A stretch of 64,000 nt of DNA, from positions 310,001-374,000 of the forward strand of contig NZ_JACKZY010000001.1 of the NCBI RefSeq assembly GCF_020833685.1, read 5' to 3'. The notes under the pieces were generated by a model that was not told the origin of the DNA, made no database searches, and saw nothing but the letters and a program-made list of their open reading frames with translations. Positions 3,845 to 63,404 of this stretch are shown one piece after another. The stretch's first letter is position 1. Each line of letters begins with the position of its first letter. The DNA is from Nitratireductor sp. B36. Its GTDB lineage: Bacteria > Pseudomonadota > Alphaproteobacteria > Rhizobiales > Rhizobiaceae. Both the position numbers and the translations under genes were made by a program.

Positions 3845-4903
3845 ATGCGTTGCTTGGTCTTTTTCATCTTTTGCAGCTTCGCTGCCATCAGCCAGCCTGC
3901 CGCTCATGCGCAGGAGCCGGTTGTCGGGCTGGCCGCACCTTTGACCGAGAACTTCGAGCTGCTTGGGCAGCAGCTGCGCGATGGAGCACGCGTGGCGGCT
4001 CAATCGATGGGTGCGCGGATTGTCGAGGCCGATACGCAGTGCAGCACCGAAGGTGGGGAGGCCGCCGCCCGCTCACTCATCGATCAGAACGTATCGGTGG
4101 TGGTGGGCTTTCTGTGCACAGACGCCATCGACGCAGCGCTCCCTCTCTTCGCGAAAGCGGAGATTCCAGTCATCACGCCCGGGGTGCGCACTGCAACCCT
4201 GACCGATCAGCGTGAACGTACCGGCTGGCCCGTTTTTCGTACTGCGCCGCGCGCTGATGCGGAGCGCGATGCGGTCGCCCGGCTTCTCCTGCCCCGCTGG
4301 CGCGATGCCTTTTTCGCCATCGTGGACGATGGAACCATCTACGGGCGCGAACTGGCGGAGAACCTCCGCGCGTCTGCCGAGCTGCAGGAACTCAAGCCCG
4401 TCTTCATCGACACGTTCCGCCCGCAACTCGACAATCAGATTGCACTGGCCGGGCGCCTGAAACGCTCGGGCGCAACCCACGTATTCGTGGGCGGCGATCG
4501 CAGTGACATTGCCATTCTCGCGCGCGACGCGGCAGGCATGGATTACCAGCTCGTTATCGCTGGTGGCGAAGCGTTGCGCGCAGAAGAAAGCACCATACCT
4601 CTTGCCGACGGAACACTGATGGTCGGCCTGCCGCGTTGGGCCGACATCGCCACTGAGAGCGCCAAAAGCGCGCTGGGTGACGCCGGCATTGTGCCCGACG
4701 GTTACGTTCTACCTGCCTTCGCAGCCACCGAACTTGCCATTTCCGCGTTGCGTGCGGGGTCCGGCGCCATCGCGACGACACTCCAATCCGGCACATTTCA
4801 AACAGCGCTCGGCCCATATTCCTTCGATGAGAAAGGTGATCTCGAACAGCCCTTGTACCAGCTGTTCCGCTTCGACGGGCAGGCCTTCAAGGCGGTTGAA
4901 TGA
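3845..4903 (+). CDS. periplasmic ligand-binding protein (branched-chain amino acid type)
   Basis: A 352-residue protein with a clear signal peptide (MRCLVFFIFCSFAA..., likely cleaved after AHA at about residue 22) and a type I periplasmic binding fold (Peripla_BP_6/LivK-like). Landmarks are VGLAAPLTENFELLGQQLRDG at the N terminus, VVVGFLCTDAIDAALPLF, IPVITPGVRTATLTD, FAIVDDGTIYGRELAENLR and THVFVGGDRSD. No permease or ATPase gene is adjacent, so it is an orphan binding protein or sensor component. Its TGA overlaps the ATG of the downstream P1 peptidase (ATGA), implying coupled translation and possibly a shared substrate. The ligand cannot be told from sequence. Confidence 0.8.
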   Translation: MRCLVFFIFCSFAAISQPAAHAQEPVVGLAAPLTENFELLGQQLRDGARVAAQSMGARIVEADTQCSTEGGEAAARSLIDQNVSVVVGFLCTDAIDAALPLFAKAEIPVITPGVRTATLTDQRERTGWPVFRTAPRADAERDAVARLLLPRWRDAFFAIVDDGTIYGRELAENLRASAELQELKPVFIDTFRPQLDNQIALAGRLKRSGATHVFVGGDRSDIAILARDAAGMDYQLVIAGGEALRAEESTIPLADGTLMVGLPRWADIATESAKSALGDAGIVPDGYVLPAFAATELAISALRAGSGAIATTLQSGTFQTALGPYSFDEKGDLEQPLYQLFRFDGQAFKAVE

Positions 4904-38094: not shown

Positions 38095-39180
38095 CTACTC
38101 CTCGGCGTCGCCGCCGTCCTGGTCGCCTGGTCCGGTATCATCAAGGAACTTCTCGGCAATCAGGCCTGCATTCTGCCGCAGAGCCAATTCGATCTCCTGC
38201 GCCGCCTCTGGATTGTCACGCAGGAACTGCTTGGCGTTCTCACGCCCCTGCCCCAGACGCTGCGAATTGTAGGAGAACCAGGCGCCTGACTTCTCGACAA
38301 TGCCAGCCTTCACGCCGAGATCGATCAACTCGCCGGTCTTGGATACACCTTCACCATACATGATGTCGAACTCGACCTGCTTGAAGGGCGGGGCCATCTT
38401 GTTCTTCACGACCTTGATACGGGTCTGATTGCCCACCGTCTCATCACGATCCTTGACCGAACCGATACGGCGAATGTCGAGACGCACCGAAGAATAGAAT
38501 TTTAGCGCATTGCCGCCCGTGGTCGTCTCCGGCGAACCGAACATGACACCGATCTTCATGCGGATCTGGTTGATGAAGATCACCATGGTCTTCGACCGGG
38601 AGATGGAGGCCGTGAGCTTGCGCAGCGCCTGGCTCATGAGTCGGGCCTGCATGCCCGGCAGGGAATCACCCATTTCACCTTCGATTTCGGCGCGCGGCGT
38701 CAAGGCCGCAACCGAGTCCACGACAATCACATCCAGCGCTCCGGAACGCACGAGTGTGTCGCAGATCTCGAGCGCCTGCTCTCCCGTGTCGGGCTGCGAG
38801 ATCAGAAGGTTTTCCAGATCCACACCCAGCTTGCGGGCATAGACGGGATCAAGCGCATGCTCGGCATCGATGAAGCCGCAAATGCCGCCCTTCTTCTGCG
38901 CTTCAGCGACCGTATGGAGCGCCAGCGTCGTCTTACCGGAGCTTTCCGGACCGTAAATCTCGATAATGCGGCCACGTGGCAGTCCGCCGACGCCCAGTGC
39001 AATATCGAGGCCCAGCGACCCGGTGGAGATGGTCTCGATCTCGACCACCTGATCATTGGCGCCGAGCCGCATGATCGATCCCTTGCCGAAGGCACGTTCG
39101 ATCTGCGATAGCGCCGCATCCAGAGCCTTGGTTTTGTCCACCGAATTATCCTCTACAAGCCGCAATGAATTCTGAGCCAT
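38095..39180 (-). CDS. recA: recombinase RecA
   Basis: A 361-residue RecA. It starts [20 protein letters not shown]; Walker [10 protein letters not shown] is at 77-85; the signature [20 protein letters not shown] (about 215-235) and loop L2 region [19 protein letters not shown] follow. An acidic C-terminal tail is present ([15 protein letters not shown]). RecA filaments on ssDNA drive recombination and LexA cleavage. ATG at 39180 is the family start; a ribosome-site-free extension to 39237 was rejected. A near-perfect LexA box lies upstream at 39306-39320. Confidence 0.98.
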
Positions 39181-39305
39181 GATACAACACCCCTTCGAGG
39201 TCAATGGAGGCGGTTCCGCCAAATCCGCGATAGCCATCTGTACCCTTTTTGTTCTCTTTTTGCAATAGGCATTAGAGCATTGATAAAGCTACATAAATAC
39301 AATTT

Positions 39306-39320
39306 GTTCTATTTTTGTGC
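39306..39320 (-). promoter_or_regulatory. LexA/SOS box of recA (near consensus)
   Basis: GTTC-TATTTTT-GTGC matches the alphaproteobacterial GTTC-N7-GTTC box at seven of eight fixed bases. It is identical at 14 of 15 positions to the perfect box at 61255-61269. It lies 125 bases upstream of the recA ATG; a second, degenerate copy (GTTC-N7-GCAA) lies at 39251-39265. Confidence 0.75.
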
Positions 39321-54413: not shown

Positions 54414-55859
54414 TCAAGCGCCCGCAGCTTCGTCACGCACCCTGCCTGTCCAGGCAGTGCGGTCGATATCCAGATCAGGAAATTTGTCCGGATCGAGCAC
54501 CGGCCGATCGACACCGGCTTTCAGCTGCTCGCGGAAATCTTTCAGTATCCTCAGACATGTGGGCAGAAGCATCATGATGGCGATAAGATTGACCAGCGCC
54601 AGAATGCCCATCATTGGATCAGAGAAGAAGAAGACCGCGGTCGCCCCGGGTGCCACCGCGCCAAGAAAGACAATCCCCATCACAACCAAGCGCAGTGCGT
54701 TGATGGCCAGCGGGTGTTCGCTGATCACTGTCAGCGCGTTCTCGCCCAGATAGTAATTGTAGATGATCGAGCTGAAGGCAAAAAGAAGTAGAATGAAGGT
54801 CAGGAAATACTGGGTCCATTCGCCCAGGTGAGAAACCAGCGACTGCTGAGTGAGAACAACGCCGTCGATGGCTTCGGCGCCCGGCGTATATACATCGCCC
54901 AATAAGATAACGAAGGCGGTGCAGCTGCAGATCACAATCGTGTCGATAAAGACCGAGAATGACTGAGTGATGCCCTGGCTGATGGGATGGCGCACATCGG
55001 CCGTGGCGGCGACGTTGGGTGCAGAACCAAGTCCTGCCTCATTGGAAAAAAGGCCACGCCGCAAGCCCTGTGCAAGCGCTGCCCCCATGCCCCCACCAAC
55101 GGCCTGCTCCAGACCGAATGCGTTCATGACGATGGAATAGAGAACGCCGGGAAGCTCGGTGATGTTCAACAGGATAATGACGACCGCCATCAGCAGATAG
55201 GCAATCGCCATGACGGGAACCACAACATCGGCTGCCTTGGCGATGCGGCGGATGCCGCCAAAGACAATAAAGCCGGCAATCACGGTCAGAAGGAGACCCG
55301 ACCACATGCGGTCAATCCCCAGGCTCTCCTGCGCCGCTCCGGCAACCGTGTTGCCCTGAAATGCGTTGAAGCCAATGGCGAACGCCGCGATGAGGCAGAT
55401 CGCATAGAGCACGGCGAGCCACTTATACTCCTCACCGAGACCATGAATGATGGACCGGGCGGGGCCGCCACGAAACGTTCCGTCCGCTTCGCGGCGTTTG
55501 TAAAGCTGCGCCAGCGAACATTCAACGAGACTGGTCGCCATGCCAACCAGGGCGATAGCCCACATCCAGAACACTGCACCTGGACCACCAAGCGTGATGG
55601 CCACGGCCACGCCGGCGATATTGCCGCCGCCGACCCGTCCCCCAACGGAGACAAGAAGTGCTGCACGCGCGGAGATCGCATTGGGGTCTCCGCTCTGATT
55701 TTTGGAAGAGAGGACGCGGAACATGCGTCTGAAGAACTGAAGTTGAACAAACCCGGTCAACGCGGTGATGAAAATGCCTAAAACGACAAGAATTGGGATG
55801 AGGGACCACCCCCAGGTTAAGTCTCCGATAACGCCAAATAAGCTCTCGATGAATGTCAC
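54414..55859 (-). CDS. AGCS family alanine/glycine:cation symporter
   Basis: A 481-residue sodium- or proton-coupled amino acid carrier of the AGCS (AlsT/DagA) family with about ten helices. Signature blocks are VGGRVGGGNIAGVAVAITLG (about 84-103), GPGAVFWMWAIALVGMATS, RGLFSNEAGLGSAPNVAATA and VHTP-like ISQGITQSFSVFIDTIVIC. The start is GTG at 55859 with GAGGG seven bases upstream; the longer in-frame ATG at 56069 runs through leader DNA. It starts with VTFIESLFGVIGDLTW. Confidence 0.92.
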   Translation of the reverse strand: MTFIESLFGVIGDLTWGWSLIPILVVLGIFITALTGFVQLQFFRRMFRVLSSKNQSGDPNAISARAALLVSVGGRVGGGNIAGVAVAITLGGPGAVFWMWAIALVGMATSLVECSLAQLYKRREADGTFRGGPARSIIHGLGEEYKWLAVLYAICLIAAFAIGFNAFQGNTVAGAAQESLGIDRMWSGLLLTVIAGFIVFGGIRRIAKAADVVVPVMAIAYLLMAVVIILLNITELPGVLYSIVMNAFGLEQAVGGGMGAALAQGLRRGLFSNEAGLGSAPNVAATADVRHPISQGITQSFSVFIDTIVICSCTAFVILLGDVYTPGAEAIDGVVLTQQSLVSHLGEWTQYFLTFILLLFAFSSIIYNYYLGENALTVISEHPLAINALRLVVMGIVFLGAVAPGATAVFFFSDPMMGILALVNLIAIMMLLPTCLRILKDFREQLKAGVDRPVLDPDKFPDLDIDRTAWTGRVRDEAAGA

Positions 55860-61134: not shown

Positions 61135-61221
61135 TCAAATGGCGCCGATCACCACAGCCGCCATCATGATAAAGGAACTGACGGCAACGAGCGAGACGAC
61201 ATCCTGGACAAGATCGGTCAT
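61135..61221 (-). CDS. 28-residue SOS-controlled membrane peptide (SidA-like candidate)
   Basis: A complete small gene: ATG at 61221, TGA at 61135, encoding 28 residues. The peptide starts MTDLVQDVVSLVAVSS and continues as FIMMAAVVIGAI, a single hydrophobic helix preceded by a short acidic N terminus. AGGAGGG lies four bases upstream of the ATG, one of the best ribosome sites in the window. The promoter upstream carries a perfect LexA box (61255-61269) between -35 and -10. The design parallels SidA of Caulobacter, a 29-residue SOS-induced membrane inhibitor of division that contacts FtsW/FtsN. Sequence similarity to SidA could not be tested here. It lies between ggt and lolD. Confidence 0.8.
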   Translation of the reverse strand: MTDLVQDVVSLVAVSSFIMMAAVVIGAI

Positions 61222-61249
61222 TTATCCCTCCTGATCACTTTATAATCCC

Positions 61250-61278
61250 TTTATGTTCTATTTTTGTTCTATCGTCAA
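61250..61278 (-). promoter_or_regulatory. SOS promoter with perfect LexA box in the spacer
   Basis: On the minus strand: -35 TTGACG (61273-61278), 17-base spacer, -10 CATAAA (61250-61255). The LexA box, GTTC-TATTTTT-GTTC on the plus strand at 61255-61269, sits within the spacer and touches -10, so bound LexA would block RNA polymerase. About 30 bases separate -10 from the ribosome site. Confidence 0.82.
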
Positions 61279-61404: not shown

Positions 61405-62091
61405 TTACCCGGTCCAGGCGACGACCTTGCCGCCGCTCAGCGTGACGACGCGGTCCATCCGCGCGGCCAGTTCATGATTGTGGGTAGCAATCAGGGCTGC
61501 GAGGCCTGACTGACGCACAAGCGCCTCAAGCGCGTCGAACACATAGCCTGCCGTCTTGGGGTCGAGATTGCCGGTCGGCTCATCCGCGAGAAGAATACGC
61601 GGAGCGTTGGCGACAGCGCGGGCAATGGCCACTCTTTGCTGCTCGCCACCCGACAGTTCTGCTGGTCGGTGGCTCGCCCGGTGACCGACCCGCAAGTAAT
61701 CGAGAAGCTGTCCCGCACGCGCCTTCGCCTCGGCCGGCGCCATGCCGGTGATCATCTGCGGGATCATGATGTTCTCTTCTGCAGAGAACTCCGGCAGCAG
61801 ATGATGGAACTGGTAGACGAAGCCGATTTCGTTGCGACGGATCGCGGTGCGCGCATCATCCGACAGCTGGCCACACGCCTGACCTCCGACGATCACCTCT
61901 CCAGAATCCGGTGCCTCAAGCAGCCCTGCCAGATGCAGCAATGTCGATTTTCCGGCCCCTGAGGGAGCGACCAGTGCCACCATCTCGCCCGGGTTCAGGG
62001 AAAACGCAGCATCCTTGAGAATGGTGAGCCGGCCCTCGCCTTCGCGGTAGCTGCGCTCAATGCCCTTCAATTCGAGAATGGGTGCCGCCAT
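61405..62091 (-). CDS. lolD: lipoprotein-releasing ABC transporter ATPase LolD
   Basis: A 228-residue ATPase that powers release of lipoproteins from the inner membrane to LolA. Walker [10 protein letters not shown] (42-50), Q-loop region [17 protein letters not shown], signature [17 protein letters not shown] and Walker [13 protein letters not shown] with H-loop IATHN. ATG at 62091 overlaps the stop of lolC (TGATG). The proS-lolC/E-lolD order is that of many alphaproteobacteria. Confidence 0.95.
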
Positions 62092-63404
62092 CAATCATAC
62101 CTCAGAGCATCGACCGGATCGAGCCGGGAGGCCCGCCAGGCAGGAAAGAGCGTTGCCACGAAGGACAGGACCAGCGCCATGATGATAACGGCCACCGTCT
62201 CGCCCGCTTCCATCTTGGCCGGCAACTGGCTCAGGAAATAGAGTTCGGGATCGAAGATCGTCGTGCCAGATAGCCAGGAGAAGAACTGGCGGATCGATTC
62301 CACATTCCAGCAGATAACGACACCGAGGATCACGCCGGCAAGGGTGCCGGCAACGCCGATCGCAGCACCGGTCATCAAGAAGATGCGCATGATGGCGCCG
62401 CTTGTCGCGCCCATGGTGCGAAGGATCGCAATATCGTGACCCTTGTCCTTCACCAGCATCACAAGGCCGGAAATGATGTTGAGCGCAGCAACAAGCACGA
62501 TCATCGTCAGAATCATGAACATGACGTTGCGCTCCACTTCGAGCGCAGAAAAGAAGGTGCTGTTGCGCTGGCGCCAGTCGGAGAGAAGGATGGGGCGCTG
62601 AGCGGCCTCCTCGACCTTCGGCCGCAGCGTGTCCACGGCATCGGGATTGTCGACGAAGAGTTCGATCGACTGCACGAGCCCCTCCGCATTGAAATAGAGC
62701 TGCGCCTCCTGGAGCGGCATGTAGATGATGGAGGAATCGTATTCCGACATGCCGATCTCGAAGGTCGCAGAGATCGGATAGGTTTTCACGCGCGGCGTGG
62801 TGCCGAAGGGGGTGATGTCGCCCTCGGGGGCGACCAGCGTCACGGAATCGCCGACCGTCAGGCCGAGATTCTGCGCCATGCGCGAGCCGACCGCCAGCCC
62901 TTCGCCGGCCGCGAAGCCGACCAGCGAGCCGTCCTTGATGTTGTCGGAAACCAGCTCGAGACGGGACAGGTCGTCAGCACGCACACCGCGGACCACAGCG
63001 CCGGTTCCCGCTCCGCTGCGGCCGGAAACGAGAACCTGCCCCTGCACCATCGGCATGGCAAGACGCACGCCCTCAACGCCCTCAATTCGGCTGGCGACAG
63101 CCTCATAATCATCCATCGGCATGTCGATCGGCTGCACGATGAGATGGCCGTTGACGCCCAGAATGCGGGTCAGCAGCTCGGCACGGAAACCGTTCATCAC
63201 CGCCATCACCACGATCAGCGTTGCCACACCCAGCATGATGCCGATGAAGGAGATCGAGGCGATCACCGAGATCACCGTCTCTTTCCGGCGAGAGCGAAGG
63301 TAGCGCCAAGCGATCAGCCGCTCGAAACGGGAGAACGGTCCGGCACCCAAGGGTTTCCCGGGCGCGCTCTGCGCGGCTTCTCCGCTGGTGGCGGCTTCAC
63401 TCAT
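62091..63404 (-). CDS. lolC: lipoprotein-releasing ABC transporter permease (LolC/LolE)
   Basis: A 437-residue permease with four helices: an N-terminal one ([20 protein letters not shown] joined to VMAVMNGF, about 47-75), a large periplasmic MacB-like domain (about 75-290), and three C-terminal FtsX-type helices ([58 protein letters not shown]). The N-terminal [17 protein letters not shown] is the LolC/E signature. Only one permease gene is present, so it likely forms a homodimer (LolF-like). It follows proS with a 47-base gap. Confidence 0.93.

Follow-up and report, generated by a model that had tools for sequence, protein, structure and literature searches.

The window analyzed here, a stretch of 64,000 nt of Nitratireductor sp. 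B36, carries on its minus strand a short gene which was overlooked by gene finders. The frame runs from an ATG at 61221 to a TGA ending at 61135 and encodes a peptide of 28 aa, MTDLVQDVVSLVAVSSFIMMAAVVIGAI. Its immediate upstream neighbor on the same strand is lolD, which marks a conserved slot, and the next gene downstream is the convergent gamma-glutamyltransferase gene (ggt). The features of this locus and the recA features of the same window are as follows.

61135..61221, minus strand: gene of the candidate SidA-type 28-aa single-helix membrane peptide MTDLVQDVVSLVAVSSFIMMAAVVIGAI (supported by conservation of the frame, purifying selection and a profile link to SidA)
61226..61232, minus strand: Shine-Dalgarno sequence AGGAGGG, 4 nt 5′ of the ATG
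61250..61255, minus strand: candidate −10 element CATAAA, a weak consensus match separated from TTGACG by a 17-nt spacer
61255..61269, minus strand: LexA box GAACAAAAATAGAAC (minus-strand reading), GTTC-N7-GTTC type (GAAC-N7-GAAC)
61273..61278, minus strand: −35 element TTGACG, with conserved spacing to the box
61405..62094, minus strand: lolD; the best NCBIfam match is LolD with 250 bits, under the cut-off of 307.75
62091..63404, minus strand: lolC/E permease gene upstream of lolD, TIGR02212 above cut-off
38095..39237: recA (TIGR02012)
39306..39320, minus strand: LexA-type box GTTCTATTTTTGTGC in front of recA, differing in one base of 15 from the box at 61255-61269

An earlier note on this DNA had claimed a short SOS frame with AGGAGGG and with start and stop in frame, a LexA box between a TTGACG −35 and a CATAAA −10, and a recA box differing from it in one base of 15. 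All of these elements are present as described. The peptide forms a single hydrophobic helix with a best 17-residue Kyte-Doolittle mean of 2.55, has two acidic residues near the N-terminus and contains no basic residues. A size of about 29 aa and one hydrophobic helix, which together with a LexA-type operator characterize SidA in the wide sense, are thus found in the window peptide, and the operator is found in its promoter. Direct assignment of the peptide with Pfam, NCBIfam and PHROGs gave no match, and an Rfam scan of the locus returned no family.

The LexA-type promoter

On the minus strand from 61278 to 61135 the box occupies the spacer between −35 and −10 and extends just past it. A strict sigma-70 scan reported no promoter at the locus, the −10 being a poor match. 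The exact pattern GTTC-N7-GTTC occurs three times in the window (1.76 expected) and 122 times in the genome (88 for the reversed pattern); the two other exact boxes of the window (4349-4363 and 55734-55748) fall within long ORFs. As these counts are near chance in window and genome, we rejected the box by itself as proof.

What raises the box at this locus above chance is its conservation across the upstream regions of the family. From 36 distinct coding sequences, taken from the 37 best-scoring family loci, 35 have upstream regions of at least 60 nt. The exact box is present in 33 of these 35, and all of them have a box if one mismatch is tolerated. In 33 a TTGAC or TTGAA directly precedes a box, at a distance of 4 nt in 32. 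Lower-scoring members of the family are less uniform in this respect than the best-scoring 36: among 20 further loci, picked for paralogues or weak scores, ten carry a box at one mismatch and nine others are extra box-less copies, and one locus (L347) lies in the lolD slot without a box even at one mismatch. The LexA-like gene of the genome of strain B36 has an exact box of the same kind starting 64 nt before its start. The peptide gene is therefore, judged by its conserved upstream sequence, almost certainly LexA controlled; LexA would bind at its promoter and the SOS response would induce it.

Other arrangements of such boxes were also seen. Six loci (L015, L016, L020, L328, L331 and L342) carry two to three LexA-type boxes upstream, in register at 11-nt steps and with shared half sites, some with one mismatch. 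Unlike these, the two boxes of Caulobacter are separate and spaced by about 18 nt. At L342 (genome G101) the SidA-like frame, whose LexA boxes have one mismatch, is not located beside lolD, and a frame upstream of it (MAGSVNKVILVGNLGAD) looks like the start of ssb. Elsewhere in the genome of strain B36, two AT-rich GTTC-N7-GTTC boxes 600 bp apart (C1:149190-149204 and 149796-149810) are candidates for other SOS promoters.

Coding character of the frame

When the single peptide was used as query, 70 of 151 genomes of the family gave a match at E<=1. The profile A1, a 28-row profile of the window family built from part of this 151-genome sample, matched 78 of the 151 at E<=0.01; the 73 genomes without a match indicate that the gene is dispensable or has diverged. 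Not a single internal stop was found in any match row of the two family searches, which read through stops.

The 36 distinct coding sequences vary as expected of translated sequence, with 0.211, 0.066 and 0.349 at the three codon positions, i.e., lowest at the second and highest at the third. Between the window gene and that of a relative of the same genus, 9.5 of 20.0 synonymous sites (pS 0.47) and 2.5 of 61.0 non-synonymous sites (pN 0.04) differ, and all pairs of the 36 sequences together give a pN/pS of 0.37, the synonymous sites being almost saturated. Stops in alternative frames are present in 32 of the 36 sequences for the +1 frame, in only 6 of 36 for the +2 frame and in 5 of 36 for one antisense frame.

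These data bear directly on the possibility that nothing but the LexA box is genuine, with the frame being a chance ORF in a small-RNA transcript. The shortness of the frame and the very strong conservation of the box would fit such a transcript. The codon-position pattern, pN much below pS, match rows free of internal stops, the +1 stops in 32 of 36 (though +2 in only 6 of 36) and the lack of an Rfam match contradict it, and we regard it as hardly credible. The earlier note had named conservation of the promoter alone and frequent stops at homologous positions as outcomes that would count against the gene; the family matches in 70 and 78 genomes, the low pN and the stop-free homologous rows show the opposite. 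The peptide frame is a real coding gene under protein-level selection.

The slot behind lolD and the relation to SidA

Within the family, lolD was found at 24 of 30 loci, and box and lolD occur together at 23 of these 24. Order-wide, A1 matched 109 of 297 genomes at E<=1, the matches outside the family being individually weak. At the outside-family loci the frame has an exact box and lolD beside it in 9 of 13 examined (22 were fetched; the nine left out mostly lie within long open frames). Class-wide, 106 of 385 genomes matched at E<=1, and box or lolD was seen at none of the eight loci examined out of 29 fetched. Since A1 does not reach beyond the order, we sought the wider family via the slot behind lolC-lolD.

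For this purpose 131 stretches downstream of lolD, of at most 1.7 kb each, were scanned for an exact box that has a hydrophobic frame of 24-45 aa 15-110 nt behind it. The stretches, one per genome, were chosen by LolC score, family spread or name and are not a random sample. The combination was found in 33 stretches in sense and in none in antisense, and 0 of 655 shuffles contained it; if the box may have one mismatch, the numbers are 45 in sense, 5 in antisense and 9 in shuffles. Related slot peptides were thus seen in other Hyphomicrobiales, in Caulobacterales and in further families. Among the named carriers are Aurantimonas, Fulvimarina, Oryzicola, Tardiphaga, Afipia, Rhodopseudomonas, Microvirga, Alsobacter, Methylobacterium bullatum, Devosia, Cucumibacter, Robiginitomaculum, Phenylobacterium, Asticcacaulis, Brevundimonas and Caulobacter. 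Other named genomes, among them Hoeflea sp. M_23, Pleomorphomonas, two Hyphomicrobium, Methylobacterium sp. Leaf112 and Brevundimonas bacteroides, had no slot candidate in the stretch read, and such absences are upper bounds because the stretches are short. Candidates were present at 12 of 29 top-LolC loci and at 5 of 57 one-per-family loci, two of which (L128 and L136) look like chance; the same is true of some other frames of this census (e.g., L285). The search across Hyphomicrobiales for short frames with the same box beside lolD, which the earlier note had proposed, turned up comparable boxed peptides in the same slot.

In the named set the start of dnaE follows in 19 of 24 loci with a candidate, which suggests an ancestral order lolD-peptide-dnaE. 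In the window family no dnaE start was detected within 1.5 kb at 49 of 52 loci (40 of 42 distinct genomes); dnaE is adjacent to the peptide gene in some same-family relatives and in Caulobacter and is not adjacent in the window. At one locus of the window's genus (L006, G136) lolD lies on the opposite strand and downstream of the peptide, presumably through a local rearrangement or an assembly effect, so that the neighborhood is not fixed even within the genus.

The frequent order lolD-peptide-dnaE raises the question whether the frame is a leader peptide or uORF regulating dnaE or another downstream gene. A Ribo-seq study of Sinorhizobium meliloti describes a translated small ORF, sORF25, within the 5′-UTR of dnaE1, and names it where a regulatory role is suggested generally for 5′-UTR sORFs; the words SOS, LexA and SidA are absent from its main text (PMC10117765). 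sORF25, known here by its position, may be the same gene as that of the window peptide. Regulation of dnaE is nevertheless very improbable, as frame and box persist at the 49 of 52 loci without a nearby dnaE and in the window, where the convergent ggt follows, and as the gene in the Caulobacter slot is a proven division inhibitor (PMC4211646).

This slot gene is found in Caulobacter hibisci and three other Caulobacter immediately ahead of dnaE, as a frame of 29 aa that has two LexA boxes with one mismatch each. In C. hibisci the frame ends about 20 bp before the likely dnaE start (TIGR00594), and another gene lies between frame and lolD. For the 29-aa peptide common to C. hibisci and sp. D5, a score of 72.4 bits was obtained with NCBI's curated model NF033228 div_inhib_SidA (cut-off 35), which also matches in the control genome of Caulobacter vibrioides. 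The published locus numbers are in line with this: sidA is CCNA_02004 (PMC11034885) and dnaE is CC1926 (PMC1839093, table), and by the double numbering of recN (CC1983/CCNA_02062) dnaE lies within about two numbers of sidA, which fits the slot assignment.

The reach of NF033228 is short. Among the other slot peptides it gives 66.1 bits for Phenylobacterium, 20.5 for Brevundimonas and no match for Asticcacaulis; of 385 genomes of the class, one exceeds its cut-off and five match at E<=0.01. As it fails already inside Caulobacterales, the reach of the model and not biology may set the border. Against the window peptide there was no match at E<=1 and in its genome none at all, so the cut-off of the SidA equivalog is not reached.

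We therefore compared alignments by hhalign, namely A1 for the window family, A2 for Caulobacterales and A3 for 23 hand-picked intermediates. The probabilities were 96.9% for A1 with A3, 95.4% for A3 with A2 and 94.9% for A1+A3 with A2, while the direct comparison of A1 with A2 gave 52.2% and a score of 18.8, close to the best shuffle (17.3). For each of the four comparisons 200 column shuffles were made, and all of them scored below the real alignment; single helices converge easily, and such shuffles keep the composition. Less-alike slot candidates such as L097, L099, L115, L117, L157, L161, L280 and L309 had been left out of A3. Because of this selection by hand, a second comparison used every one of the 39 distinct candidates that belong neither to the family nor to Caulobacterales, and this unselected set gave lower values than A3, 94.8% with A1 and 84.9% with A2, with 0 of 100 shuffles reaching the real score in each case.

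In the hand-picked set of 60 sequences an acidic residue at column 7 is shared by 57, Phe at 17 by 53 and Trp at 24 by 44; the window peptide has Val in place of this Trp. The motif [DE]-N9-F is present in 28 of 28 A1 members, in 7 of 9 A2 members and in only 21 of the 39 unselected slot peptides, for which reason a part of the more distant frames in the slot may have no relation to the family or may have diverged strongly.

With SidA the window peptide shares LexA-type boxes, a length of 28-29 aa, a single hydrophobic helix, the acidic residue at 7, Phe at 17, lolD upstream and profile similarity. It differs in that identity is about 30% over 20 columns, that no dnaE follows in the window and that its N-terminus is acidic (D3/D7), whereas that of Caulobacter is basic (R3/R6/E7). 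Homology to SidA is on these alignments very probable, a confidence which we lowered slightly in view of the unselected set of 39. The description as a SidA-like candidate in the earlier note is supported by the slot and by the profile link via intermediates, with a score of the window peptide below the curated NF033228 cut-off; the profile comparison proposed there connects the slot peptides with SidA through these intermediates. The window peptide would accordingly be a remote SidA homologue in the position of SidA and not a catalogued SidA.

Proposed function, phage copies and meaning

SidA of Caulobacter is described as an SOS-induced inner-membrane protein of 29 aa that interacts with FtsW and FtsN, and as mutations in ftsW and ftsI suppress SidA, it was proposed to hold FtsW/I/N inactive (PMC4211646). 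Filamentation of a lexA mutant is reported to be abolished by deletion of sidA (PMC12700426). By analogy, LexA would sit on the box between −35 and −10 in undamaged cells and block transcription of the peptide gene. After DNA damage the cleavage of LexA triggered by RecA would free the promoter, and the 28-residue single-helix peptide would be made and inserted into the inner membrane. There it would most likely keep the septal wall-synthesis complex FtsW/FtsI/FtsN inactive, so that septal synthesis stalls and the cell does not divide before repair. That the peptide is a division inhibitor is, on this analogy, probable, with membrane insertion, the divisome as target and division arrest as the predicted steps. 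We assign a probability of roughly three in four to the complete reading, i.e., that the peptide is an SOS checkpoint micropeptide and remote SidA orthologue, most likely acting on FtsW/FtsI/FtsN.

Other SOS-induced peptides of this size act differently. TisB is an SOS-induced membrane peptide of the same kind as DinQ of E. coli. For DinQ this induction and membrane location have been described (PMC3567139). A peptide of the TisB/DinQ type would slow growth by disturbing the membrane potential and not by binding the divisome, and would be controlled by an antisense RNA. In size class, single helix and LexA control the window peptide is compatible with it. Such a function is improbable in view of the profile link to SidA via intermediates and the shared slot, the lack of basic residues, the absence of matches in an Rfam scan of the locus, and the acidic residue 7 and Phe 17, whose conservation within the A1 family suggests a specific partner. 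The checkpoint function modeled on SidA thus remains the preferred reading.

SulA of Escherichia coli has the same physiological role as that proposed here, an SOS division inhibitor; it inhibits FtsZ and is unrelated to the window peptide. A search with PF03846 found no SulA at E<=0.1 in the whole genome, with the E. coli control matching, in accordance for this genome with the absence of sulA that the earlier note had given for the group. YneA of Bacillus and SosA of Staphylococcus are larger proteins of other lineages. They are likewise described as SOS-induced division inhibitors, and YneA, like SidA, is reported to act on FtsW (PMC13396833, PMC6851548). DidA of Caulobacter also acts on FtsW/I/N; by its description it is set apart, being SOS-independent, activated by DriD and not under LexA (PMC4211646).

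Some genomes carry extra relatives of the peptide without a LexA box. Six of these (L329, L332, L334, L337, L339 and L341), SidA-like peptides of 28-44 aa, seem by eye to lie in early regions of phages or prophages; for three further box-less paralogues (L330, L333 and L340; e.g., MIDLIHGALSVVSIGLFIATIAVWIGV...) the neighborhood is not clearly that of a phage. One genome contig with a phage-type copy has the same size, 42,186 bp, as an IMG/VR record encoding an identical peptide. A search with the phage-type alignment A4 found seven IMG/VR loci (L348-L354) with versions of 32-33 aa, 60-100% identical to the query and likewise without a LexA box; the frame is at 5001 in L348-L352 and L354 and at 1110 in L353. 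Compared with A1, A4 gave 98.8%, its members having been found using A1. The next long genes include in L348 and L354 a RecE-like exonuclease (PF12684, phrog_412) and in L354 additionally RecT (PF03837, phrog_561). L349 and L351 have genes with similar N-termini, and the proteins scanned from L350, L352 and L353 gave other families or none. Searching IMG/VR with A1 gave 30 pattern matches with none confirmed, a consensus-like peptide had no match at E<=10 in the plasmid and INPHARED phage collections, and a degenerate DNA pattern returned four stretches, none of them SidA-like. The phage copies are possible division inhibitors, arrest of host division being the obvious guess.

Among the matches listed from the open-licence literature none names an SOS division inhibitor of the rhizobial Alphaproteobacteria, and no listed match reports SidA outside Caulobacter in its title or the start of its abstract. 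We consider it somewhat better than an even chance that SidA is the sole characterized representative of an ancient SOS micropeptide family which has escaped annotation, with an ancestral order lolD-sidA-dnaE across much of Alphaproteobacteria, and that phages of Hyphomicrobiales have captured it as the box-less copies of 28-44 aa near RecE/RecT-type genes, which would stop host division on the schedule of the phage.

Many genera now have a concrete candidate for a division inhibitor in the conserved gene of about 28-35 codons which lies beside lolD or dnaE behind a LexA promoter, and the slot peptides supply natural variation for mapping the contact between SidA and FtsW. The findings suggest that a checkpoint of one helix has persisted over several alphaproteobacterial orders, and if division is indeed what the phage copies act on, they would give phages a new means of holding the host cell cycle.
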